DNA of 39,868 bases from Alphaproteobacteria bacterium casp-alpha2 (GTDB lineage: Bacteria > Pseudomonadota > Alphaproteobacteria > Rhodospirillales > Casp-alpha2): positions 1 through 39,868 of the forward strand of contig LFEN01000001.1 in the NCBI GenBank assembly GCA_001510075.1, given 5' to 3'. A model generated the notes under the pieces. That model was given only the letters and a program-made list of their open reading frames with translations. It was not told the DNA's origin and searched no databases. This document shows, piece by piece, positions 2,910-15,658 of this stretch (positions are counted from its first letter, which is position 1; the number at the start of each line of letters is the position of its first letter). Position numbers and translations under genes: made by a program.

Positions 2910-3401
2910 TTAAGTCTCCTCATAAGGTGTAGCATCTTTGTGGAAGAAGGCGGGCTGGCCGTCCTTCTTGCGACGGATCAAATCGATGTCCGGGTAATCG
3001 ACACCATCATCGCCGTCGCGGCTGCCGACTTCAAGGTATTGGGCATCACCGTTTCCCCGGTTGATCAAGTGGTGGCCGTTGCCGGTTGCTGCCGGAAACC
3101 CGGCAACCATTCCTGGGCCTAATTCCTGTTCCCCCTCATCGGTGACCAGGGTCAATTGGCCTTCCAGGACATAGATAAATTCATCTTCGTGGGTGTGGCA
3201 ATGGCGTTGCGATGACATAACACCGGGGGCTAGGCAAATTAGGTTGACGCCGTACTGAGACAGCCCCAGGGCGTCGCCGATGACGCGCTTTTGCCGCGTC
3301 TCGACACCTTCTTTGAACTGCGCCGGATAAGTGGTGCCGAGCTTCGTCTCGAGCCTCTCCGGATCGAGGGCGGGAAGGGTTAACTTTGCATGCGACGTCA
3401 C
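2910..3401 (-). CDS. Cupin domain protein
   Basis: 163 residues from a GTG start with GAGAGG about eight bases upstream. Longer starts run into the toxin gene. The first cupin motif is HCHTHEDEFIYVLEG, with two histidines and a glutamate for metal; the second is around GFPAATGNGHHLINRG. Relatives include single-domain cupins described as transcription-associated or as sugar/oxalate-binding enzymes, and nothing here picks one. The gene begins 17 bases after the PIN toxin stop, so toxin-antitoxin mRNA could read into it, and it overlaps the ribosome-binding site of thiolase. The C-terminus (about 125-163) is charged, with DGDDGVDYPDIDLIRRKKDG. Confidence 0.85.
   Translation of the reverse strand: MTSHAKLTLPALDPERLETKLGTTYPAQFKEGVETRQKRVIGDALGLSQYGVNLICLAPGVMSSQRHCHTHEDEFIYVLEGQLTLVTDEGEQELGPGMVAGFPAATGNGHHLINRGNGDAQYLEVGSRDGDDGVDYPDIDLIRRKKDGQPAFFHKDATPYEET
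2916..2921 (-). promoter_or_regulatory. Shine-Dalgarno of the thiolase gene
   Basis: GAGGAG is followed by an eight-base spacer and then TTG. It fixes the non-ATG start of thiolase and lies inside the last codons of the cupin gene, so the two are translationally close. Confidence 0.7.
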
Positions 3402-3418: not shown

Positions 3419-3802
3419 CTACCGAATGAGTACGACGTCGACACCAATATCCAATTCGGCCCAAACCCTATCCGCCGTCAGGGCGCCGACCTGTCGAATT
3501 CGCGCCAAGCTGAGGCAGGCCCGGTCCGCAAGCGAAAGGCCATGCTTTCGGGTTAGCAGACCAAGCATTCCCGTCGCAAATGCATGTTCCTCGTCGAAGT
3601 TCACGATCTCCACGCCGAGAGTGGAGATGGCGGCATGGACTTCGACCTCGGTCAACCCAGAGCCCGCAAGCTTGCCCACTATCTCGGCGACGTTGACCGC
3701 AGACATCAACGCGCCGGGGATATAGCCCTTCACGACATCATCGCCCGGTTCGCGTTTGAAAACGGCCAGCGCCGCCGACGCATCAAGGACAATGTTATCC
3801 AT
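3419..3802 (-). CDS. PIN-domain ribonuclease toxin (VapC-like)
   Basis: 127 residues from the ATG that overlaps the antitoxin stop by eight bases. The four acidic residues of the PIN active site are in place: Asp7 (IVLDASA), Glu40 (NVAEI), Asp93 (LSLADRACL) and Asp111 (ALTADRVW). The family cuts RNA (tRNA or rRNA) with Mg2+ and is held inactive by its partner. An upstream in-frame extension (MKNKKRVWCAW) would fall inside the antitoxin gene and is unlikely. All catalytic residues are intact, so it is probably functional. The target cannot be read from sequence. Confidence 0.92.
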   Translation of the reverse strand: MDNIVLDASAALAVFKREPGDDVVKGYIPGALMSAVNVAEIVGKLAGSGLTEVEVHAAISTLGVEIVNFDEEHAFATGMLGLLTRKHGLSLADRACLSLARIRQVGALTADRVWAELDIGVDVVLIR

Positions 3803-4307
3803 GTTTCCTCTCCACGCGCACCACACCCTCTTCTTGTTCTTCACGTTTTACTTCACGCCGCCGCTCGGCCAATAACTCATCAACCAGACTCACGCCTTCT
3901 GGCACGTATTTGGCGACCATATCCTGCACGCGCGCAATCGCGGTATCGCGCCCAATCAATCTAACTTCTTCCTTGTCCAGCATCATGAGAACGGGACCGC
4001 CTTCCTCGATTCCCAGAAATTGGCGATAGGCTGCCGGAACGACGACCCGGCCATCCGGCCCTACCTGTGTCCAGATTTGTTCCGGCGGACCTTCCTCTAA
4101 TTCAGGAGACCGTTTTTTTTCTTCCTTTTCCTTGGCCCGCTCCAAGACGTTGCGAACGTGTTGATAACGAATATCGAGAAAACGGGCGATATCGGACCGA
4201 GTATAATCAGCGCTACCAAGCGTCCGTATTTTATCCGACTTGGTTTTCATGCCGGCGCACAATTGCTTCATGGCGTTTTTTTGCTCTTTGCTCAAAAGTT
4301 TTGACAT
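3795..4307 (-). CDS. Antitoxin with N-terminal helix-turn-helix and AbrB/SpoVT-like domain
   Basis: 170 residues. Residues about 22-55 look like a helix-turn-helix (ADYTRSDIARFLDIRYQHVRNVL), then a charged linker, then a swapped-hairpin AbrB-type domain at about 81-118 (GPDGRVVVPAAYRQFLGI). The last 50 residues are charged and probably wrap the toxin, as in other VapB proteins. It lies directly upstream of the PIN toxin with an eight-base overlap, the usual antitoxin-first order. It should neutralise the toxin and repress its own promoter at 4342-4370. Most VapB-type antitoxins are about 70-90 residues with one DNA-binding domain, so two candidate DNA-binding modules is unusual. AAGGAA precedes the ATG. 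Confidence 0.85.
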   Translation of the reverse strand: MSKLLSKEQKNAMKQLCAGMKTKSDKIRTLGSADYTRSDIARFLDIRYQHVRNVLERAKEKEEKKRSPELEEGPPEQIWTQVGPDGRVVVPAAYRQFLGIEEGGPVLMMLDKEEVRLIGRDTAIARVQDMVAKYVPEGVSLVDELLAERRREVKREEQEEGVVRVERKHG

Positions 4308-4379: not shown

Positions 4380-5564
4380 TTACCCCGTTTCCTCGAACAA
4401 TTCCCGGCCGATCAGCCAGCGGCGGATTTCGGATGTGCCGGCGCCGATCTCATACAATTTGGCGTCGCGCAGCAGGCGACCTGTCGGGCTCTCGTTCATA
4501 TAGCCCATGCCGCCCAGGCATTGTATGGCTTCCGACGCCATCCAGGTGGCCTTTTCGGCGGCAAAAAGAATGGCCCCGGCGGTTTCCTTGCGAAGCCGGG
4601 GGTTTCCCGCGCCGCCTTCGTCACAGGCCCTGACGACGGCGTACACATAGGCCTTGGATGCGTTCATGGTGGTGTACATGTCGGCCAGCTTGCCCTGCAT
4701 CAATTGAAACGCACCGATGGGTTTGCCGAACTGTTTTCGGTCATGGACATAGGGAAACACCACGTCCAGGCAGGCCTGCATGATGCCCAAGGGGCCGGCC
4801 GCCAGCACGGCGCGCTCGATATCAAGGCCGCTCATCAACACCGATGCGCCTGCACCCTCTTGCCCGAGCAAATTTTCTTCCGGCACCTCACAGTCCTCGA
4901 ACACCAGCTCGCCGGTGTTCGATCCCCGCATGCCGAGCTTGTCGAGCTTCGGCGAGGTCGAAAAGCCCTTGAAGGTTTTCTCGACGATAAAAGCGGAAAT
5001 GCCCTTCGGCCCCGCATCGGGGTCGGTCTTGGCATAGACGATCAGGGTATCGGCGTCCGGCCCGTTGGTGATCCACATCTTGGTGCCGTTGAGGATATAG
5101 CGCGCCCCCTTCTTTTCGGCCCGAAGCGTCATGCCGATAACGTCGGACCCGGCGCCGGTTTCGCTCATCGCCAGCGCCCCGACATGATCACCGCTGATCA
5201 GTTTCGGCAAGTAGCGTTGCTTTTGATCGTCGTTTCCGTAACGCTGGAGTTGGTTGACGGTCAAATTCGAATGGGCGCCGTAACTAAGGCCCACGGATGC
5301 CGAGGCGCGGCTGATTTCTTCCATGGCGACGGCGTGTTCGATATAGCCCATACCGGCGCCGCCATAGGCCTCGTCCGCCGTAATGCCCAAGACCCCGAGG
5401 TCGCCCATTTTTTTCCACAGATCGGCGGGAAAATCGTTGCTTTCGTCAATGGCGGCAGCGCGTGGCGCGATTTCGTCGGCGGCAAAACTGCGCACCGAAT
5501 TGCGCAACATATCGGCGGTCTCGCCGAGGTAAAAATCAAGGCCCGGAACGTCATTTGGAATCAT
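4380..5564 (-). CDS. ivd: Isovaleryl-CoA dehydrogenase
   Basis: 394 residues from the ATG preceded by GAGGAA; a further upstream ATG (MREETPM) is less well placed. It oxidises isovaleryl-CoA to 3-methylcrotonyl-CoA, passing electrons to ETF. The FAD signature is [11 protein letters not shown] (131-141). The catalytic base is Glu250 in [14 protein letters not shown], the position used by isovaleryl-CoA dehydrogenases. The alternative site used by medium-chain enzymes is not Glu here ([11 protein letters not shown]), which separates this protein from straight-chain acyl-CoA dehydrogenases. It is the first gene after a promoter with a LiuR-like palindrome. With mccB downstream it supports leucine degradation. 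Confidence 0.95.
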
Positions 5565-5591: not shown

Positions 5592-5620
5592 ATTTTAGTT
5601 AACGTTTACGTAAACGTCAA
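5592..5620 (-). promoter_or_regulatory. ivd promoter with LiuR-like palindromic operator in the spacer
   Basis: -35 TTGACG (5615-5620), 17-base spacer, -10 TAAAAT (5592-5597). The spacer is filled by the perfect 16-base palindrome ACGTTTACGTAAACGT (5602-5617), extended to 28 bases (5596-5623) with one mismatched pair. MerR-family proteins bind exactly such spacer palindromes. It lies 28 bases upstream of the ivd ATG. A near-copy is at 8592-8620 ahead of the MerR gene, which points to the same regulator acting on both. Confidence 0.75.
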
Positions 5621-6882
5621 CTAGGCCCTAAAAGCATCCCCCCGCCGGCGAGCAAAATGCCCAATACGCCGCAGGCCAGGGCCGAGCAAAGAAAAGGTCT
5701 GTGCAACAAAATGCCTTTACCAGCCACCTTCCGAATCACAGGAATGGCGATCTTGCAGATGAAGCCGAAGACAGCAATAAAACAAAAACCAGCCAGGGGA
5801 AGGAACGGCAAACGCATGACCCAGAAGTCCGGGCCCAGATAAGCCCCGCCACCGTCAGCCTTCAAGCCTAAAAGGATGTTCACAGCCCCTTGCCAGGAAA
5901 CGGCGCGTTCCGTTCCGGCATGCATTCCGTAGCCCAGAAGAACAGACAATATCGCCGCTGCCATCAGGCTTAGCCCAAAGGCCCACGTCCCCCCGAGGCC
6001 GCTGCCCTTTTCGCCGGGAATTTTCCGGGCCGCGCTGAGTATCATGATGGAAAGGGTAACGGGTAGGCTGAGGGCGGTTAAAAAAGAACTGCTAAGAATA
6101 ATTTGCCATGTCCGGAGCGGGCTTTGATCGCCGACGGCCAGATGGCCGGCCAGCAATGCCATAAAGGTCAGCACATAGGCGACGGGCAATGCCGCCAGAA
6201 AGACATGCGCAAACCGGGCCCAGGGAACATGGCCCGGATTTTTTCCCCGAAACCGGAGGGCGGTGTCTATCATCAGACCAATGCCATAGGCCGCCAGATA
6301 CCAGAAAGCGGCAACGAGAACGCTTTTCAGGACGGCGTGAGAGAAAACGTTGCGGATGGTAACTTCGGTAAAAGAGTGAAGGACATAGAGCGGTATAATC
6401 AGGAATAGAGAAATGCCCAGGTAGGTTGCCGCCAGGCCGCTAAAGATTTTGGCCTGCTCCCATTCCCCGGCGAAATTAAGCAACCCAAGAACACCCAGTA
6501 TCGACAGGTAATAGAAGAATAAAAAAGGCGATCCGCCGAACAAAAAATTGATCGCCGCCGCGACGGGAACAAAGACGAACAGCAATGCAAAAATCAATCC
6601 ACCGAAAGCCACGCCCTGGTCCGCGTCCTGAAAGCCGAACCGGATCAGCGTCTGTAATTTTCCGGCCAACCACCCGTTCATGAATTTAGGAATTTCCCGC
6701 CACCCGGTGATCGAAAGCCTGACCCAGCTTGATGCCAGCCAGCGGCGCAAGCCCTTTATCTTCGGTACCGGTCCGGTGTCTGCTATCCACAGCCCCGCAG
6801 ACACGGCGCCCATCAAAACGCCGGACCAAAGCAGGATAGTCTGTACAAAAACAATACCGGTTTGGCCCCCAGTTGGCGTCAT
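5617..6882 (-). CDS. Polytopic inner-membrane protein of unknown function
   Basis: 421 residues, not recognised. About ten hydrophobic spans are visible near residues 11-34, 91-115, 118-138, 146-170, 183-209, 226-252, 262-287, 301-320, 361-386 and 396-420. A basic amphipathic stretch (41-83, KIKGLRRWLASSWVRLS and on) follows the first span. There are no cofactor or Walker motifs. The start ATG follows GAAGGTG, seven bases after the thioesterase stop, and the TGA lies inside the ivd operator. The context suggests it is expressed with the MerR regulator, an aspartate-dehydrogenase-like enzyme and a thioesterase. A carrier or a membrane sensor would both fit, and nothing in the sequence chooses. 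Confidence 0.85.
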   Translation of the reverse strand: MTPTGGQTGIVFVQTILLWSGVLMGAVSAGLWIADTGPVPKIKGLRRWLASSWVRLSITGWREIPKFMNGWLAGKLQTLIRFGFQDADQGVAFGGLIFALLFVFVPVAAAINFLFGGSPFLFFYYLSILGVLGLLNFAGEWEQAKIFSGLAATYLGISLFLIIPLYVLHSFTEVTIRNVFSHAVLKSVLVAAFWYLAAYGIGLMIDTALRFRGKNPGHVPWARFAHVFLAALPVAYVLTFMALLAGHLAVGDQSPLRTWQIILSSSFLTALSLPVTLSIMILSAARKIPGEKGSGLGGTWAFGLSLMAAAILSVLLGYGMHAGTERAVSWQGAVNILLGLKADGGGAYLGPDFWVMRLPFLPLAGFCFIAVFGFICKIAIPVIRKVAGKGILLHRPFLCSALACGVLGILLAGGGMLLGPS

Positions 6883-6889
6883 TACACCT

Positions 6890-7345
6890 TCACCCTGTTA
6901 CATCGGCGCGGCCGGAAATCCGCATCAACGTTTGCTGCATGGTCGCACACGGGGTTTCCCGACCGTCCTTGATGATACCCACGTCCGCCCGGCATACGGT
7001 TAGGGTCATGCCGGAGCGGATGACCTCTCCCCTGGCGATCAACATCTCCCCATCGGCCGGCGCCATCAGGTTCAATTTGTATTCAACGGTCAAAATACCG
7101 TCTTTTGCATCCATCAGGGAAAACGCGGCATACCCGCCGGCGCTGTCGGCGATGGTGCCGATGACGCCACCGTGGAAAAAACCGTGTTGCTGGGAAACGG
7201 CATCACTATAGGGCAGTTCGATCTCGCAAAAGCCCGGCTCGACCCGGCGAAGGCGGGCACCGATATGATCCATAATCCCCTGGGCGGCGAAGCTTTTTTT
7301 GACCCGCGCCTCAAAATCCGGGTCCCTGACCTTGAAATTCTGCAT
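6890..7345 (-). CDS. PaaI-family acyl-CoA thioesterase (hotdog fold)
   Basis: 151 residues. The hotdog active-site segment QQHGFFHGGVIGTIADSAGG has the HGG motif (58-60) and Asp67 at the start of the long helix, as in PaaI-type thioesterases that hydrolyse acyl-CoA. The TVEYKLNLMAPADG segment (about residues 85-100) is the typical central strand. It is cytoplasmic. It lies 11 bases after the aspartate-dehydrogenase-like gene and seven bases before the membrane protein, in the MerR-led operon. A likely job is releasing CoA from stalled branched acyl-CoA intermediates; the acyl specificity is not readable. Confidence 0.9.
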   Translation of the reverse strand: MQNFKVRDPDFEARVKKSFAAQGIMDHIGARLRRVEPGFCEIELPYSDAVSQQHGFFHGGVIGTIADSAGGYAAFSLMDAKDGILTVEYKLNLMAPADGEMLIARGEVIRSGMTLTVCRADVGIIKDGRETPCATMQQTLMRISGRADVTG

Positions 7346-7356
7346 GCCGGGGTTCC

Positions 7357-8184
7357 TCAGGTACCTACCTTGAACGGCGTCACCAGACCGCGCAGCGTCT
7401 CCATGACGCTCAAGGGTACGATCATGCCGGTGGCCGGGTTGTCTGGCGTCGGCTGGACGGCGATGGTCATTTCAAAATTGGCGGTATCGGCGACAACCTT
7501 GATAGTATGGGTGTTGCGGGTGACCCCCGGATCGGCCCAAATTTCGAAATCGGTTTTTTCCGGGCCAACCCCGGCCAACCCGAGGGCGACGGCGACATTG
7601 ACGTTGGCGGGAAACTTCTTCGCCGCCTCGGCTGCATTTCCCCTAAAAAGCATCAACGGCTGTTCAAGCCCATCAAGGTCGATCCCCTGCTCAATGACAA
7701 AGGGAGCTTTTTTAAGCCCCGCCGGTGGTTTGCGCGTAAGCATGGTTACCGAATGGACGACACCCAAGGCCGCAGAGCGGATCGCATCAAGCCCCAGGAT
7801 CGCGCCCGTCGGCACGATAATCCTGGCGCCGGTTTCCCTGGCCAGATCAACCAGGTCCATACGGTCCAACAGGGACGTAACGCTCAACGGCACAAAAAGC
7901 AGCCCGGCCTTGAGGGTGGTTTCAGCGATTTCCACGAACATTTCCGGCGGCGCGCTTTCGACGATGATGTCGGACACCGCCACCAGTTCCTTAATGCCGA
8001 GAACCGGCACCGCCACGTTGAAATCTTGCAGCCTTTCTTCCGCCCGTTCCTGGTTGCCGGCGGCGACGGCCGACAGTTCCAGACCTTCAACACCGCCGTC
8101 CAGCCATTTGGCAACCGGCAGACCGACCGTGCCGAGGCCGGCAATGCCAACCCGCAGAGGTTTTTTTGGGGTACCGATGGTCAT
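7357..8184 (-). CDS. L-aspartate dehydrogenase-like NAD(P)-dependent oxidoreductase
   Basis: 275 residues from the ATG that overlaps the MerR stop as ATGA. The Rossmann dinucleotide site is GIAGLGTVG (13-21). PTGAILGLDAIRSA (125-138) and ADPGVTRNTHTI (217-228), with His226, match the catalytic region of the aspartate dehydrogenase family. Known members convert aspartate and NAD(P)+ to iminoaspartate or oxaloacetate plus ammonia, for NAD synthesis or for making NADPH in storage-polymer producers. No nadA or nadC gene is near, so a quinolinate role is not supported by context. Linkage to a leucine regulator suggests a nitrogen or reductant role, but that is inference. Confidence 0.82.
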   Translation of the reverse strand: MTIGTPKKPLRVGIAGLGTVGLPVAKWLDGGVEGLELSAVAAGNQERAEERLQDFNVAVPVLGIKELVAVSDIIVESAPPEMFVEIAETTLKAGLLFVPLSVTSLLDRMDLVDLARETGARIIVPTGAILGLDAIRSAALGVVHSVTMLTRKPPAGLKKAPFVIEQGIDLDGLEQPLMLFRGNAAEAAKKFPANVNVAVALGLAGVGPEKTDFEIWADPGVTRNTHTIKVVADTANFEMTIAVQPTPDNPATGMIVPLSVMETLRGLVTPFKVGT

Positions 8185-8585
8185 TCGCCTTTCGCCGCTT
8201 TCCGGCCTTTTTGCTTTTCCGACAACAAACCCGAACATTGAGCTTCTATTTTTTCCATTTCCATCAGGGTTTCAACAATGTCGTCTTGCTGGCGAATGAG
8301 CGCTGCCTTGCGTTCGTAGATTTTGTCGAGGAAATGGCGCAACTGCGTGACTTCCGAATGATCGACGTCATAGAGATCAATCAACTCGCAGATTTCATCA
8401 AGGGAAAAGCCGAGCCGCTTGCCACGCATGATCAGCTTCAGCCGCACCCGGTCGCGGGGGCCGTAAACACGCCGCTGGCCTTCACGGTCCGGTGACAGCA
8501 GGCCCTTGTCTTCGTAAAAGCGAATGGTGCGGGTGGTGACGTCGAATTCCCGCGCCAGTTCGGCGATGCCAAATGTTTCGGACAT
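8181..8585 (-). CDS. liuR: MerR-family transcriptional regulator, LiuR-like
   Basis: 134 residues. A winged helix-turn-helix at the start (FGIAELAREFDVTTRTIRFY, then DKGLLSP) has the standard MerR signature, followed by a coiled-coil dimerisation helix (about 80-117). There are no clustered cysteines for metal binding, which fits the LiuR group that senses branched-chain acyl-CoA or related metabolites. A palindrome sits inside its own promoter and a near-copy inside the ivd promoter, so it probably controls both. It leads an operon with the aspartate-dehydrogenase-like gene (ATGA overlap), thioesterase and membrane protein. The LiuR name rests on context and operator form, not on a sequence search. 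Confidence 0.85.
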   Translation of the reverse strand: MSETFGIAELAREFDVTTRTIRFYEDKGLLSPDREGQRRVYGPRDRVRLKLIMRGKRLGFSLDEICELIDLYDVDHSEVTQLRHFLDKIYERKAALIRQQDDIVETLMEMEKIEAQCSGLLSEKQKGRKAAKGE

Positions 8586-8591
8586 GAGCGA

Positions 8592-8620
8592 AGGTTAGCT
8601 TACGTTAACGTAAACGTCAA
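8592..8620 (-). promoter_or_regulatory. liuR promoter with LiuR-like operator in the spacer
   Basis: -35 TTGACG (8615-8620), 17-base spacer, -10 TAACCT (8592-8597). The spacer holds TTACGTTAACGTAA (8600-8613), a perfect palindrome. Its outer part ACGTAAACGTCAA (8608-8620) is identical to 5608-5620 of the ivd operator, and the -35 and spacer lengths agree. This indicates autoregulation by the MerR protein. Confidence 0.72.
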
Positions 8621-8628
8621 AATGGCGT

Positions 8629-10047
8629 TTAAAACATGATCAGCCCGGCCAGGCCCAAAAAGACAAAAAACCCGACGACATCGGTAATGGTGGTCAGAAA
8701 AACACCCGACGCCACCGCCGGGTCGATGCCGAAGCGGTCAAGCGCCAGCGGAATGGTCGTGCCCGCCAGCCCGGCGACGATCATATTGACGACCATCGCC
8801 AGTCCGATCACCACGCCCAGGGTAGGGTCGCCGAACCAGCCCCAGGCAACGCCGCCGATTAGCACGGCAAAAAGAATACCGTTGAAACAGCCGACCAGCA
8901 GTTCCTTGCCGATGACCCGGCTGGCGTTTGCCGGCGTCAGCTCCTTCATCGCCAACGCCCTAACAGCGACGGTGAGGGTCTGGGTGCCGGCGTTGCCGCC
9001 CATGGAAGCGACGATGGGCATCAAAATCGCCAACGCCACCATTTGCTGCAAGGTGGCATCGAACAAACCGATGACCACGGAGGCCAGGATCGCCGTGGCC
9101 AAATTAACAACCAGCCAGCTAAAGCGCGCACGCATGGTATAGAGGCTGGCTTCGTACAAGTCGTCTTCCTTGACGCCACCTAAAAGCATGATGTCCTCTT
9201 CGTGCTCTTCGTGGATAACGTCGACAACGTCATCAATGGTAATGATACCGATTAGTCGGCCCCCATCATCAACCACCGGGGCGGACACCAGATCGCGCTG
9301 GCGGAAAACGAAGGCAACATCTTCCTGGTCCACGCTCACGGGCAGGACCTTCATTTCTGCATCCATGAGATCGGTGACGGGCACCGGACGATCGGTCGTC
9401 AGAAGCCGGCTAAGCGGGATCGAGCCGACAGGCCGGTGCGTCGGGTCGACGACAAAAATATCATAGAATACGCCCGGCATGACCGCCTTCTCGGTCTCGG
9501 TCTTATGGCGCAGGAAGTCGATGGTCTGGCCGACGTTCCAAAACGTCGGCACGGTCACCACTTCGCGCTGCATCAAACGACCGGCACTGTCTTCGGGATA
9601 AGACAGTCCCTCTTCGATCAGGGTCCGGTCGCCGGCAGGGATGGCGTCCAGAACTTGTTTTTGTTCGCCTTCGTCCAGTTCCTCTAAGACTTCAAGCGCA
9701 TCATCGCTGTCCAATTCGACGATGACCGCCGCCAGATCCTCAAGCCCCAGAACATCGACGACATGATCACGGACCGTTTCGTCCAGCTCGGCCAGGAGGT
9801 CCGGATCAAAATTGTCGCGCAGGATATTGACGACCATGGCCCGATCATCAGGGCTCAGGTGCTCCAACATGTCAGCCGCGTCTGCCGGGTGAAGCTCTTC
9901 GATCAGCTCGCGAACGCGAAGCTTGTCGCCCGAGAGAAGGACCTCAAGAAAGACCTGCTCTTCCTCAGGCTTAAGGTCGAGCACTTCTTCCTCGGGGGGG
10001 GGCCCAGGGGAATTAGCATTTTTCCTGTTGTCTTCGGTATCGACCAC
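8629..10047 (-). CDS. mgtE: Magnesium transporter MgtE
   Basis: 472 residues, full length. It has an N-terminal acidic superhelical domain (about 30-165, repeated [17 protein letters not shown]-type units), then two CBS domains (about 175-295, including [22 protein letters not shown]), then a membrane domain of about five helices (about 320-472). The pore region has [14 protein letters not shown], the conserved MgtE motif. It carries Mg2+ inward down its gradient and closes when cytosolic Mg2+ binds the N-terminal and CBS domains. The GTG start has GGAA about nine bases upstream and lies only 11 bases beyond the T-run of the tRNA terminator, so its own leader is almost absent. The CBS domains carry acidic residues as expected. 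Confidence 0.96.
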
Positions 10048-11341: not shown

Positions 11342-13327
11342 TTACTCAAATTCCAAAATCACCTGATCGACCATCAGGCTGTCACCCGGCTTGGCCTTAA
11401 TGATGGCGATGACGCCATCTTTTTCGGCGCGCATGACGTTTTCCATTTTCATCGCCTCGATGACGGCCAGTTCCTCGCCGGCCTTTACTTCTTGCCCTTT
11501 GGTGACGGCCAGCGACACCAGCAGCCCCGGCATCGGTGACAAAAGAAGGTTCGATGTGTCGGCAATTTCTTTTTCGGGCATTAGCATCTGCAACTCGGCG
11601 GCGCGTTCGTTGAGCACCAGGACATCCACTTCCCCGCCCCGGTGATAAAGCCTGTAGGCGATATCTACCCGTTCTACCTGCAAACAGATCAACGCGCCGT
11701 TGAGGGTTCCCTTAAATACCGGATCGCCCAGTTTCCAGCCGGTTTGAATTTCGGCGTCGAGGCCTTTCATGGAAACCGCATAGCCGCCTTCATTCATGCT
11801 CACCCGAACCGGCGTCGCTTGGTTTTGCAACAAGACCACCCAGTCGTCAGACACCACCCTCATCCGCCCCGTGGTCTGGCCGCTAATCAAGGACGCGCGT
11901 TCCTGGAAACCACGGTGCACGGCAGCCGCAACGGCGACCAGCAGCTTTGGGTCATCCGGGACCAGGTCCTGGGAATGAAACCCGTCGGGGTATTCGTCGG
12001 CAATAAAATCGGTGCTGAGACGACCTTCGGCAAAACGCGGGTGCGCCATCAGGGCGGCTAAAAAACCGATGTTATGGCGCACGCCCTGGATATAAAATTC
12101 ATCCAGCGCCAAAGACATGGTTGCTGTCGCTTGCTCGCGGGTATCGGCGTAAGAGATCATTTTGGCGATCATGGGATCGTAGAAAATAGAAATCTCACCG
12201 CCCTCGCTGACGCCCGTATCGACGCGGACAGCGTCGTTTTCCGCCGGTGGGCGGTATTTTGTCAGCCGCCCGGACGATGGCAGGAAGTTGCGGAACGGGT
12301 CCTCGGCATAAATGCGGGCCTCGATGGCCCATCCATCCAAGGTGATGTCATCCTGGGCAAAGGGCAGCTTTTCCCCGGCGGCTATATTGATCATCTGTTC
12401 GACCAAATCGAGGCCGGTGATCTTTTCCGTCACCGGGTGTTCGACCTGAAGGCGTGTATTCATTTCCAGAAAATAGAAATTTCTGTCGCCATCGACGATG
12501 AATTCTACCGTCCCGGCAGAGGCATAATTGACCGCCTTGGCCAGGGCCACGGCCTGTTCGCCCATGGAACGGCGCGTCGCCTCATCAAGAAATGGCGACG
12601 GCGCTTCCTCGATAACTTTTTGATGGCGGCGCTGGATAGAACATTCACGTTCGCCCAAATAGACCGTATTACCAAAATTATCGGCCAGTACCTGGATTTC
12701 AATATGGCGCGGGTTTTCGATGTATTTTTCGATGAACACCCGGTCGTCTCCGAAGGCGGTTTTCGCCTCACTGGATGCGCGGGCAAGCCCGTCCAGACAT
12801 TCTTCGTCATTGCGCGCAATACGCATGCCCTTGCCGCCACCGCCGGCGGATGCCTTTAACATCACCGGATATCCGATTTTTTTGGCGACGTTGATCGCTT
12901 CCTTGCCGTTTTTGATGACGCGGCCATCACCGGGAACCGTATTGACGCCAGCGCTTTGAGCCAGCTTTTTCGACTCGATCTTGTCGCCCATGACGGTCAT
13001 GGCTTTGGTGCCGGGACCGATAAAAGCCACGCCGGCTTTTATCAGCGCCTTGGCGAAGACGGCATTTTCCGACAAAAACCCATACCCCGGATGCACCGCA
13101 TCGGCGCCGGTGCGATCAATAGCTTCTAGAATCTTTTTGATATCGAGATAGCTTTCCGCCGCCGCCGGCGGGCCGATCAAGACAACCTCGTCGGCCATTT
13201 CCACGTGCAGCGCGCGCGTGTCTGCCTCCGAACAGACGGCGACGGTCCTGATACCCATTTTTTGCGCCGTCTTGATAACCCGACAGGCAATTTCACCCCG
13301 GTTGGCGATGAGGATTTTTTTAAACAC
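11342..13327 (-). CDS. pccA: Propionyl-CoA carboxylase alpha (biotin carboxylase/biotin carrier)
   Basis: 661 residues from a GTG start with GGAG seven bases upstream; TTG one codon earlier is the alternative. The order is a biotin-carboxylase domain (KILIANRGEIACRV; ATP-grasp glycine loop KASAGGGGKGMRI; catalytic MNTRLQVEHPVTE), the BT linker domain that binds the beta subunit (about 450-580), and a C-terminal biotinyl domain with EAMKMEN, biotin Lys627. It carboxylates biotin with ATP and bicarbonate for propionyl-CoA to methylmalonyl-CoA. The length and BT domain separate it from the shorter AccC. It follows pccB and the two 2TM genes in the same direction. Methylmalonyl-CoA mutase is not in the window. 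Confidence 0.95.
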   Translation of the reverse strand: MFKKILIANRGEIACRVIKTAQKMGIRTVAVCSEADTRALHVEMADEVVLIGPPAAAESYLDIKKILEAIDRTGADAVHPGYGFLSENAVFAKALIKAGVAFIGPGTKAMTVMGDKIESKKLAQSAGVNTVPGDGRVIKNGKEAINVAKKIGYPVMLKASAGGGGKGMRIARNDEECLDGLARASSEAKTAFGDDRVFIEKYIENPRHIEIQVLADNFGNTVYLGERECSIQRRHQKVIEEAPSPFLDEATRRSMGEQAVALAKAVNYASAGTVEFIVDGDRNFYFLEMNTRLQVEHPVTEKITGLDLVEQMINIAAGEKLPFAQDDITLDGWAIEARIYAEDPFRNFLPSSGRLTKYRPPAENDAVRVDTGVSEGGEISIFYDPMIAKMISYADTREQATATMSLALDEFYIQGVRHNIGFLAALMAHPRFAEGRLSTDFIADEYPDGFHSQDLVPDDPKLLVAVAAAVHRGFQERASLISGQTTGRMRVVSDDWVVLLQNQATPVRVSMNEGGYAVSMKGLDAEIQTGWKLGDPVFKGTLNGALICLQVERVDIAYRLYHRGGEVDVLVLNERAAELQMLMPEKEIADTSNLLLSPMPGLLVSLAVTKGQEVKAGEELAVIEAMKMENVMRAEKDGVIAIIKAKPGDSLMVDQVILEFE

Positions 13328-13348
13328 CAAACACTCCCGTTTTCGGCC

Positions 13349-13618
13349 CTATTCGGGACCGCCGAGCAACCCCTTGAACAAACCCATGGTGTACGCTGCC
13401 TGCAGCGCAAAAACCGACCCCCAGCCGACCATGGGCCATACGAACCACAGGTTATCCGGAGAATTCGTATAATTTACCGCCACCAACACGATCATGGTCA
13501 GAAAATAAAGCCCGAGATGAATGGCGAACCCCCGCAACCGCCGTTCAGCAGATTTACTTTCCGTATTGGGCGCATCACTCACTATTTGTTCCGGTCCCCT
13601 AACTGTCCCCATTGTCAT
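13349..13618 (-). CDS. Small 2TM-domain membrane protein
   Basis: 89 residues with two hydrophobic spans (about 33-49 and 62-78) separated by NYTNSPDNLWFVWP, the layout of the 2TM domain family of unknown function. The start overlaps the end of the preceding gene by 20 bases. It is the second of a tandem pair between pccB and pccA and is probably translated from the same message. A short soluble N-terminus carries SAERRLRGFAIH, similar in place to the RKRMRWFANH region of the upstream gene, which suggests an old duplication. Confidence 0.72.
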   Translation of the reverse strand: MTMGTVRGPEQIVSDAPNTESKSAERRLRGFAIHLGLYFLTMIVLVAVNYTNSPDNLWFVWPMVGWGSVFALQAAYTMGLFKGLLGGPE

Positions 13619-14039
13619 TATTCTGGGGAAGTACAGCCTTGATCTGACTTGCTTTTTGCGACCGTTTCAGCGTCGGCGACAAGGCATAATTGGCGTGAAT
13701 GGCCAGCACCCCAATCCAGGCGCCGAACACCACCAGAAAAATGGCAGTATCAATTTTTTGGTAAATTGTCATCTTCAGCGAGATCGCCACCGCGATGCCG
13801 ACGACAAAGAGAATGACATGGTTGGCAAACCAGCGCATGCGCTTGCGCCCGGTTGTTACCTTATGAACAACTTCTTCTTCGAACTCGCGGGCAACTTTGG
13901 GATTAACGTGCGCCGTCGGAACGCCGCGCGAAACCGGGGGCTTTTTTTTCTGCCCAGAGGCTGGCGGAACTTCCGGTTTTTTCAGATCTTGTTCGGTCAC
14001 CGGATGGAATCTGCGATCCGGGTTAATTTCATCTGCCAT
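13599..14039 (-). CDS. 2TM-domain membrane protein with a longer N-terminus
   Basis: 146 residues. Two hydrophobic spans are at about 70-88 (FANHVILFVVGIAVAISL) and 97-115 (DTAIFLVVFGAWIGVLAIH), after a 60-residue proline/lysine-rich cytoplasmic part (KKPEVPPASGQKKKPPVSRG). It follows pccB with an 86-base gap and overlaps the next 2TM gene by 20 bases. The function is unknown. Placement between the two subunits of one enzyme suggests a membrane or regulatory partner, but only by association. Confidence 0.72.
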   Translation of the reverse strand: MADEINPDRRFHPVTEQDLKKPEVPPASGQKKKPPVSRGVPTAHVNPKVAREFEEEVVHKVTTGRKRMRWFANHVILFVVGIAVAISLKMTIYQKIDTAIFLVVFGAWIGVLAIHANYALSPTLKRSQKASQIKAVLPQNNDNGDS

Positions 14040-14125
14040 TTAGCTTGATCCTGTTGCCTGCGGGGGCCGCACCCTAGCGTTATTTGTACCGCTTAATCCC
14101 CCTTCTGAATAGATGCAGAGGGACA

Positions 14126-15658
14126 TCACAATGGAATATTGCCGTGTTTCTTCCACGGGTTGTCGAGTTTCTTGTTTTTCAACATGCGCAGGCTCTTGGC
14201 GATACGCACGCGGGTGTTATGCGGCATGATGACATCGTCGATGAAGCCCCGATGGCCGGCGATGAACGGATTGGCGAAGCGTTCCCGGTATTCCTCGGCC
14301 CTGGCCTCGATCTTTTTCTTGTCGCCCAAATCGCCCCGGAAGATGATTTCGACCGCCCCTTTCGGTCCCATGACGGCGATTTCCGCCGTCGGCCAGGCGA
14401 AATTGACGTCGCCGCGTAAATGTTTTGAGCTCATCACGTCATAGGCCCCGCCGTAAGCCTTGCGGGTAATCAACGTGACCTTTGGCACCGTCGCCTCGGC
14501 ATAGGCGAAAAGCAGCTTTGCCCCGTGTTTGATGATGCCGCCCAATTCCTGGGACGTGCCCGGCAAAAAGCCGGGAACATCAACGAAGGTAACGATGGGG
14601 ATGTTGAAGCAATCACAGAAGCGCACAAACCGAGCCGCCTTGATCGATGACGAAATATCCAGGCAGCCCGCCAGAACCATCGGCTGGTTGGCGACGATGC
14701 CGATGGTCGAGCCTTCCATGCGGGCGAAGCCAACGATGATGTTGCCGGCGTAATCGGGTTGTATTTCGAAGAACTCGCCTTCATCGACGACCTTGTGGAT
14801 CAGCTCGTTCATGTCGTAGGGCTTTGACGGATCGTCGGGTACCAGGGTATCGAGTGACATTTCCACCCGGTCGCCCAGGTCCGGCGTCGGTCGTTGGGGC
14901 GGTTGCTCGCGATTATTAGCCGGCAAAAAATCGATAAAACGGCGCAGGTATAACAATGCTTCCGTATCGTTGTTGAAAGCCTTGTCGGCAACGCCTGACG
15001 TTGTCGTGTGGGTTACCGCCCCGCCGAGTTCTTCCTGGGTGACTTCTTCATGGGTGACGGTTTTGACCACGTCCGGTCCGGTGACGAACATGTAGGACGT
15101 ATCGCGGACCATGAAGATGAAATCCGTCATCGCCGGCGAATAGACGGCGCCCCCGGCGCACGGCCCCATAATCATGGATATCTGCGGCACCACGCCGGAT
15201 GCGAGCACGTTCCTCTGGAATACCTCGGCGTACCCGGCCAGCGACGCCACACCTTCCTGGATGCGCGCGCCGCCGGAATCGTTGATGCCGATCACCGGCG
15301 CGCCGACCTTCATGGCCTGGTCCATAATCTTGCAGATTTTCTCGGCGTGGGATTCGGAAAGCGAGCCGCCGAAGACGGTAAAATCCTGGCTAAAGACAAA
15401 TATCAGCCGGCCATTGACGGTGCCGAATCCGGTGACGACGCCGTCCCCCGGAATCGACTGCTCTTGCATGCCGAAGTCTGAGCAGCGGTGCTCGACAAAC
15501 ATGTCCCATTCCTCGAAAGAACCGGGATCGAGCAATAGTTCCAGGCGTTCCCTGGCCGTCAGTTTGCCTTTCGAATGCTGGGTGTCGATACGCTTTTGCC
15601 CGCCGCCCTTGCGCGCACGGTCGCGCTTTTCTTCGAGCTGGCGGATGATATTTTGCAT
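14126..15658 (-). CDS. pccB: Propionyl-CoA carboxylase beta (carboxyltransferase)
   Basis: 510 residues, full length. It holds the two crotonase-like halves: [17 protein letters not shown] with [17 protein letters not shown] in the first, and [24 protein letters not shown] with [11 protein letters not shown] in the second. It transfers the carboxyl from biotin to propionyl-CoA; the hexamer with PccA makes methylmalonyl-CoA. The ATG has GGGAGG upstream and a promoter at 15686-15714, so it leads the pccB-2TM-2TM-pccA operon. This route carries propionyl-CoA from isoleucine, valine and odd-chain acids, in keeping with the leucine locus nearby. Confidence 0.96.

Follow-up and report, generated by a model that had tools for sequence, protein, structure and literature searches.

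LiuR is listed in PMC5343134 as a MerR regulator of branched-chain amino-acid use, and PMC7238569 describes ILV boxes in Rhodospirillum rubrum both before liuR and before the liuA-led cluster. Here we analyse a liu locus on contig LFEN01000001.1 of Alphaproteobacteria bacterium casp-alpha2, of the order Rhodospirillales; the window is the whole contig (positions 1-39868, 39,868 nucleotides). With the LiuR/liu regulon of Proteobacteria it has in common a MerR-type regulator, ILV-type operators at the regulator's own gene and at liuA, and the genes liuA and liuB, and it contains a thiolase and a DSBA protein, as does the R. rubrum liu cluster according to PMC7238569. In R. rubrum, however, liuR (Rru_A1994) stands apart from the cluster (Rru_A1940-A1948; PMC7238569), and, unlike the known liu regulon, the locus studied here carries an extra LiuR-led operon encoding an enzyme of the aspartate dehydrogenase (AspDH) family, a thioesterase and a new membrane protein. 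Aspartate dehydrogenase goes unmentioned in the main text of PMC7238569, and a literature search for LiuR together with aspartate dehydrogenase found nothing.

The locus is the regulatory first half of the leucine (liu) cluster, because liuA comes next after the operon, liuB lies at the contig end and liuC- and liuE-like genes follow in relatives. The cluster itself is an ordinary one for leucine catabolism, to which a conserved accessory operon is added. As an explanation of the whole we somewhat favour an autoregulated first operon of the liu cluster, devoted to accessory coenzyme A (CoA) and nitrogen recycling and equipped with an acid-moving membrane protein.

A LiuR-led operon and its operators

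Four minus-strand genes are packed over positions 5617-8585. They encode a LiuR-like MerR-family regulator (liuR, 8181-8585; Pfam MerR_1, 1.2e-17), the AspDH-family enzyme (7357-8184; NF009825, 330 bits against a cut-off of 253), a hotdog (4HBT) thioesterase (6890-7345; PDB 3e1e_A, E 1.5e-36) and a polytopic membrane protein of 421 residues (5617-6882). Both DNA-binding regions of the MerR type, PF13411 (MerR_1) and PF09278 (MerR-DNA-bind), were found in LiuR by Pfam scan. The AspDH start overlaps the liuR stop (ATGA), and gaps of 11 and 7 bases separate AspDH from the thioesterase gene and the latter from the membrane-protein gene, so that the tight packing described in the first-pass annotation is borne out by both reading frames and spacing. 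The neighbourhood survey that it had proposed found that the operon is not unique to this genome; the same four-gene order recurs in relatives and is therefore not due to chance. Among same-genus loci the median best-match identity was 80.3% for LiuR (n=5), 69.3% for AspDH (n=5), 76.3% for the thioesterase (n=8) and 82.9% for LiuA (n=8); at 48.5% (eight same-genus loci), the membrane protein is the fastest-evolving member of the operon.

A LiuR-type (ILV-box) double palindrome lies between the mgtE stop and the liuR start (8599-8620), and a second one (5599-5620) overlaps the stop codon of the membrane-protein gene, approximately 35-55 bases before the liuA start. Both match the ILV-box consensus used here. 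Each 22-bp operator consists of three ACGT cores spaced six bases apart, forming two overlapping palindromes. Nowhere else in the window are 11 of the 12 specified consensus bases reached, and 60 Markov-1 simulations gave a mean of 0.017 such sites under a slightly stricter count; a looser pattern with up to three mismatches is common in the window (24 matches versus 11.8 expected). Among loci L020-L037 the box precedes liuR in 9 of 10 liuR-bearing loci (the exception being L030) and liuA in all 13 liuA-bearing ones. Additional loci with a box before liuR are L077, L084 and L085, and in a further set, from which L154 was left out as a repeat of L030, 7 of 9 liuR-bearing loci have one (exceptions L148 and L152). 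A LiuR-led operon with ties to branched-chain acyl-CoA use, as proposed, is supported, with liuA directly downstream behind a LiuR-type box.

Given a double operator before liuR and a second one before liuA, LiuR would be expected to act at both sites, with its binding and its ligand predicted from the operators seen, and the four-gene operon and the operon running from liuA through cupin, thiolase, DSBA and rhodanese genes to liuB would be co-controlled by branched-chain substrates. During leucine burning the accessory operon may then recycle CoA and nitrogen. The AspDH-family enzyme, to judge from its family, would oxidatively deaminate an amino acid with NAD(P), the thioesterase would free acids from accumulating CoA thioesters, and the ten-helix protein may move small carboxylic acids, or an amino or oxo acid, across the inner membrane.

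All genes of the second operon lie on the minus strand. LiuA (isovaleryl-CoA dehydrogenase, 4380-5564) scores 620 bits against PDB 4kto and 516 against 1ivh, whereas the best acyl-CoA dehydrogenase under another name reaches 324 bits in the PDB comparison; no NCBIfam equivalog was reached at its cut-off. It is followed by genes for a cupin protein (2910-3401; Cupin_2, 4.3e-17), found at the same place in relatives, a thiolase (1708-2907; Thiolase_N and Thiolase_C), a DSBA-like protein (1103-1705; PF01323, 2.4e-38) and a rhodanese-like protein (686-1087; PF00581, 1.6e-17). The last gene is liuB (2-673; PF01039), cut by the contig end after the N-terminal 224 residues of the 3-methylcrotonyl-CoA carboxylase beta subunit. 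Its product scores 333 bits against methylcrotonyl-CoA carboxylase beta 3u9r and higher on two entries labelled otherwise, 9tps (propionyl-CoA carboxylase beta, 350) and 4q0g (AccD1, 334); the remaining propionyl-CoA carboxylases score no more than 126 bits. In three same-genus genomes, genes resembling enoyl-CoA hydratase (liuC) and HMG-CoA lyase (liuE), named by eye from their N-termini, follow liuB. The carboxylase alpha gene liuD was not seen between liuB and liuC in L203, L204 and L205, the interval to which the search was confined, and the biotin subunit may be shared or encoded elsewhere in these three. The first-pass annotation had noted that the usual liu genes are missing from the operon and had taken the latter for a side branch. 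They do lie outside the four genes, but with liuA next, liuB at the contig end and liuC- and liuE-like genes following in relatives, that is, one operator downstream and beyond the contig end, the side-branch interpretation is not supported. Positions 3419-4307 (minus strand), between liuA and the gene for the cupin, hold a toxin-like gene with a PIN domain (PF01850, by Pfam) and an AbrB-like partner; the partner's label is our own, since Pfam gave nothing for it at 1e-5. One or both of these genes also have matches near liuA in L023, L028 and L030.

The thioesterase and the AspDH-family enzyme

The operon's thioesterase exceeds the cut-off of TIGR00369 (54.5 versus 36.6 bits) and matches the hotdog thioesterases of this family (PDB 3e1e) over nearly its full length. 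It stays below the PaaI, EntH and MenI equivalog or exception cut-offs, with 26.6 against 118.9 for the PaaI equivalog TIGR02286. The first-pass name 'PaaI thioesterase' is therefore sound as to the hotdog thioesterase and loose as to PaaI.

The AspDH-family enzyme contains the Pfam domains Asp_DH_C and NAD_binding_3. It shares the two domains and a conserved N-x-H segment with L-aspartate dehydrogenase (NadX, EC 1.4.1.21; PDB 1h2h, 1j5p, 2dc1) and differs from it by its linkage to LiuR, by its retention in genus g8, which lacks NadA, and by the motif NPATG where the solved enzymes read NPKTS. That NP[K/R]T defines activity is our assumption, and that its basic residue binds the side-chain carboxylate is our guess; a search of the literature on the AspDH active site found no paper on such a role. 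Among 150 genomes of the order, 21 have both LiuR and AspDH; the two stand side by side in 15 of these, and the link may be missed in some of the remaining six because a contig end lies close. The adjacency spans genera g1, g3, g5, g7, g8 and g15 of family f2, as well as g12 from another set.

To compare linked and unlinked enzymes we fetched 30 of 64 and 30 of 78 matches, calling an AspDH unlinked on the basis of approximately 1.5 kb or less on each side. NPATG is found in all 15 LiuR-linked loci with a parsed motif, while the 51 parsed unlinked loci comprise 39 with K or R at the basic position, 9 with NPATG and 3 with G or P. This count omits the unlinked L095, L096, L097 and L175, which were not parsed, and two linked loci, L148, which by eye reads TPGTG, and L021, which is truncated. 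In a tree of which only the branching was used, and from which L104 (an incomplete sequence) and five short matches were left out, all 16 LiuR-linked enzymes fall into one set of 21 rows (support 100/99) together with five unlinked ones. The change at this position probably arose once, so the fifteen loci would represent one event and not fifteen. In L174, where LiuR has no match nearby, an NPATG-type AspDH adjoins genes that by eye resemble 2-oxoacid dehydrogenase E1 alpha and beta, as one would expect of a dehydrogenase that degrades amino acids. In G009 (L021:3019-3372), all that remains of the AspDH and thioesterase matches is residues 4-86 of one and 30 residues of the other, which resembles a single internal deletion (or an assembly fault), and the membrane-protein gene is retained.

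A rival to the recycling account is that the enzyme is NadX, converting L-aspartate to iminoaspartate for NadA, so that the operon would tie NAD supply to leucine oxidation. Within the genus, 9 of 10 genomes have NadA and none of the 10 has NadB over its cut-off, nadC (assigned by eye) lies beside nadA without nadB in G000, G003 and G005, and G000 and G005 each have a single PF01958 match. A 354-bit match to the NadB profile in G000 was rejected, as it carries the domains of a flavoprotein of the fumarate reductase/succinate dehydrogenase type and falls below the cut-off of 453; the nine matches above the cut-off elsewhere in the order score 488-659. Outside the genus, among 15 NadA-positive genomes of the order that were examined for NadB and AspDH, NadB is present in 5 of 6 without AspDH and lacking in 6 of 9 with it. 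The LiuR-linked enzyme is carried by three of these six (G013, G015, G147), and the other three (G038, G043, G046) have AspDH without LiuR. This tally derives from 24 genomes after exclusion of nine without NadA, one of which (G049) has NadB over the cut-off. However, NadA is found in none of the six g8 genomes, five of which have a LiuR-linked AspDH, and G011, G024 and G037 combine NadA, NadB and the LiuR-linked enzyme. G045 has NadA without NadB or AspDH, so another iminoaspartate source may exist, and the enzyme itself misses the NadX equivalog TIGR03855 (164 versus 207) as well as the basic residue of NP[K/R]T. Because the genus has NadA and no recognised NadB, the LiuR-linked AspDH may, on genomic grounds, feed NAD synthesis, and it could be the only known iminoaspartate source there. 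The sister genus keeps the enzyme without NadA, and NAD synthesis is therefore not its only role. Altogether, we consider identity with NadX rather unlikely, and the dehydrogenase annotation may be mis-specified.

The ten-helix membrane protein

The AlphaFold2 model of the 421-residue protein (mean predicted local distance difference test score, pLDDT, 82.1; predicted TM-score, pTM, 0.78; 15 sequences) and hydropathy averaged over 26 homologues agree on the ten transmembrane helices claimed in the first-pass annotation; two further helices of lower hydrophobicity lie between helices one and two. Residues P106, A109, N112, G116, G117, E140, P164 and Y166 are invariant over the 26 homologues. 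The protein has no match in Pfam, NCBIfam, PHROGs or PDB sequences, and the best stray hit of 15 family members scanned against Pfam had an E value of 0.095. Foldseek gave a best E value of 0.25 for the full model and of 0.2 for a model of the 272-residue short form from genus g8, neither with a match that stands out, and in the VIA fold comparison both forms remained at Z <8. Fold rows for choline-transporter-like, ZnT, MATE and G-protein-coupled receptor folds were read as common helical arrangements and set aside. The HMM and structure searches that the first-pass annotation had suggested thus yielded no convincing family or fold; its description of the protein as unrecognised stands across the libraries tried, and no known transporter family was matched.

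Of 297 genomes of the order, 31 were found to have the family; among the 210 of good quality the number is 13. A class sample of 385 genomes gave no match beyond the window's own genome in a coarse search, which scored no more than four candidates per genome, so remote homologues there could be missed. No relative was found in the plasmid collection or by a single-sequence contig scan with the membrane protein. With a closer alignment (A2), six metagenome-assembled genome loci were found, their titles reading Alphaproteobacteria, Proteobacteria, Rhodospirillales or Rhodospirillaceae. Within the genus, eight of the nine other genomes carry the gene, each with a thioesterase match before it (only a fragment in L021) and liuA after it.

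The 31 contexts divide into 17 in the liu slot, five next to mgtE, seven in family f20, and G063 and G044 with one each. In the liu slot, upstream of liuA, LiuR is visible in 14 genomes and the contig starts at the thioesterase in the other three; five of the 17 belong to genus g8 and have shorter or diverged forms (272-284 residues; 380 in G177). The complete LiuR-AspDH-thioesterase-membrane protein set is present in G000, G003, G004, G005, G006 and G020 and, with the short form, in G016, G027, G033 and G253. The operon lacks AspDH in G045 and G062 and the thioesterase in G177, and in G063 the membrane-protein gene lies beside AspDH, with LiuR absent. In the five genomes with the mgtE context (G048, G053, G056, G073, G076; families f13, f18 and f21) it follows mgtE as the next gene on the same strand, at a distance of no more than 70 bases in four of them and of 0.9 kb in L031. 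The f20 loci L078, L079, L080, L081 and L083 hold varying sets of molybdopterin-dehydrogenase, CoA-transferase, indolepyruvate-oxidoreductase-like, PnbB and Liv-type ABC genes. Genes for a molybdopterin-dehydrogenase, a CoA-transferase or an AMP-ligase are present in several f20 clusters (one gene of each kind was tested), and several of the clusters are aryl-CoA-like. In four of the seven f20 genomes the membrane-protein gene directly precedes a Liv-type binding protein and permeases (one binding protein tested, PF13458, 2.1e-70; the others judged by eye). In L083, PnbB and a 4HBT thioesterase, the latter confirmed with Pfam, precede it; in L078 a thioesterase-like fragment lies upstream, by eye.

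Because CoA-thioester catabolism, thioesterases and an organic-acid-type importer adjoin the protein in two separate lineages, we tentatively favour a carrier of small carboxylic acids, or of an amino or oxo acid, across the inner membrane. The first-pass suggestion that an acid may be exported or sensed gains indirect support from family f20, where some homologues come after a thioesterase or before a Liv-type binding protein, and is weakened by the three families whose gene adjoins mgtE and for which no neighbouring thioesterase was found. Several observations weigh against this and against the account of the operon as a whole. The protein has no convincing sequence or fold match to any transporter, and seven part-against-part comparisons revealed no internal repeat. 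The complete gene set occurs in only 10 of the 31 genomes, four of them with the short form, and three genera of the same family, g3, g5 and g7, possess LiuR-AspDH but not the membrane protein. In the five mgtE-adjacent genomes the fetched stretch yielded no match to LiuR, AspDH or a thioesterase, G044 lacks all of these neighbours, and the mgtE-only contexts argue against a strict link. As for the operators, at the threshold used none was found before liuR in L030, L148 and L152 or before liuA in L077, and the nearest box in L147 and L148 precedes a gene upstream of liuA.

The mgtE contexts raise the alternative that the protein belongs with the magnesium transporter MgtE, in ion or membrane homeostasis, and is a passenger between whose gene and mgtE the liu accessory genes were inserted. 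The membrane-protein gene comes next after mgtE in five genomes of three families, and mgtE also precedes liuR here. Yet no mgtE match was found in the fetched stretch of the seven f20 genomes, G044 and G063, and mgtE precedes liuR even without the membrane-protein gene (for example in L146 and L148), so it may simply neighbour the whole region; we regard the passenger explanation as unlikely. Least probable is that the protein is a receptor or signal partner of LiuR. Its gene does lie in the regulator's operon, and the central part of the model bears a weak resemblance to seven-helix receptors (best Z 7.8 over 137 residues, root-mean-square deviation 5.8), perhaps just a common arrangement, but the model has no sizeable soluble domain, no fold match is outstanding and the f20 homologues have no LiuR match nearby. 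Also improbable, though a shade less so, is the bolder proposal that the LiuR-linked AspDH clade is a branched-chain amino-acid (leucine) dehydrogenase on the AspDH fold, without a basic residue that might have held the side-chain carboxylate, and that the ten-helix protein founds a family of branched-chain or aryl carboxylate permeases.

Surroundings and significance

On the other side of the operon, mgtE is the gene immediately before the liuR promoter, and genes for propionyl-CoA carboxylase are found a short distance away (window 8629-10047 and 11342-15658). Across genera mgtE recurs before liuR, with pccA and an acylphosphatase gene farther upstream in several loci.

Leucine catabolism clusters are well mapped, and the locus described here places two unassigned functions under one predicted regulator: a membrane protein family absent from all libraries tried, and a group of AspDH enzymes whose motif is altered, in NadA-positive genomes without a recognised NadB. 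Assigning these functions would give a name to a new family of carboxylate permeases, or revise how some alphaproteobacterial 'aspartate dehydrogenases' are annotated.

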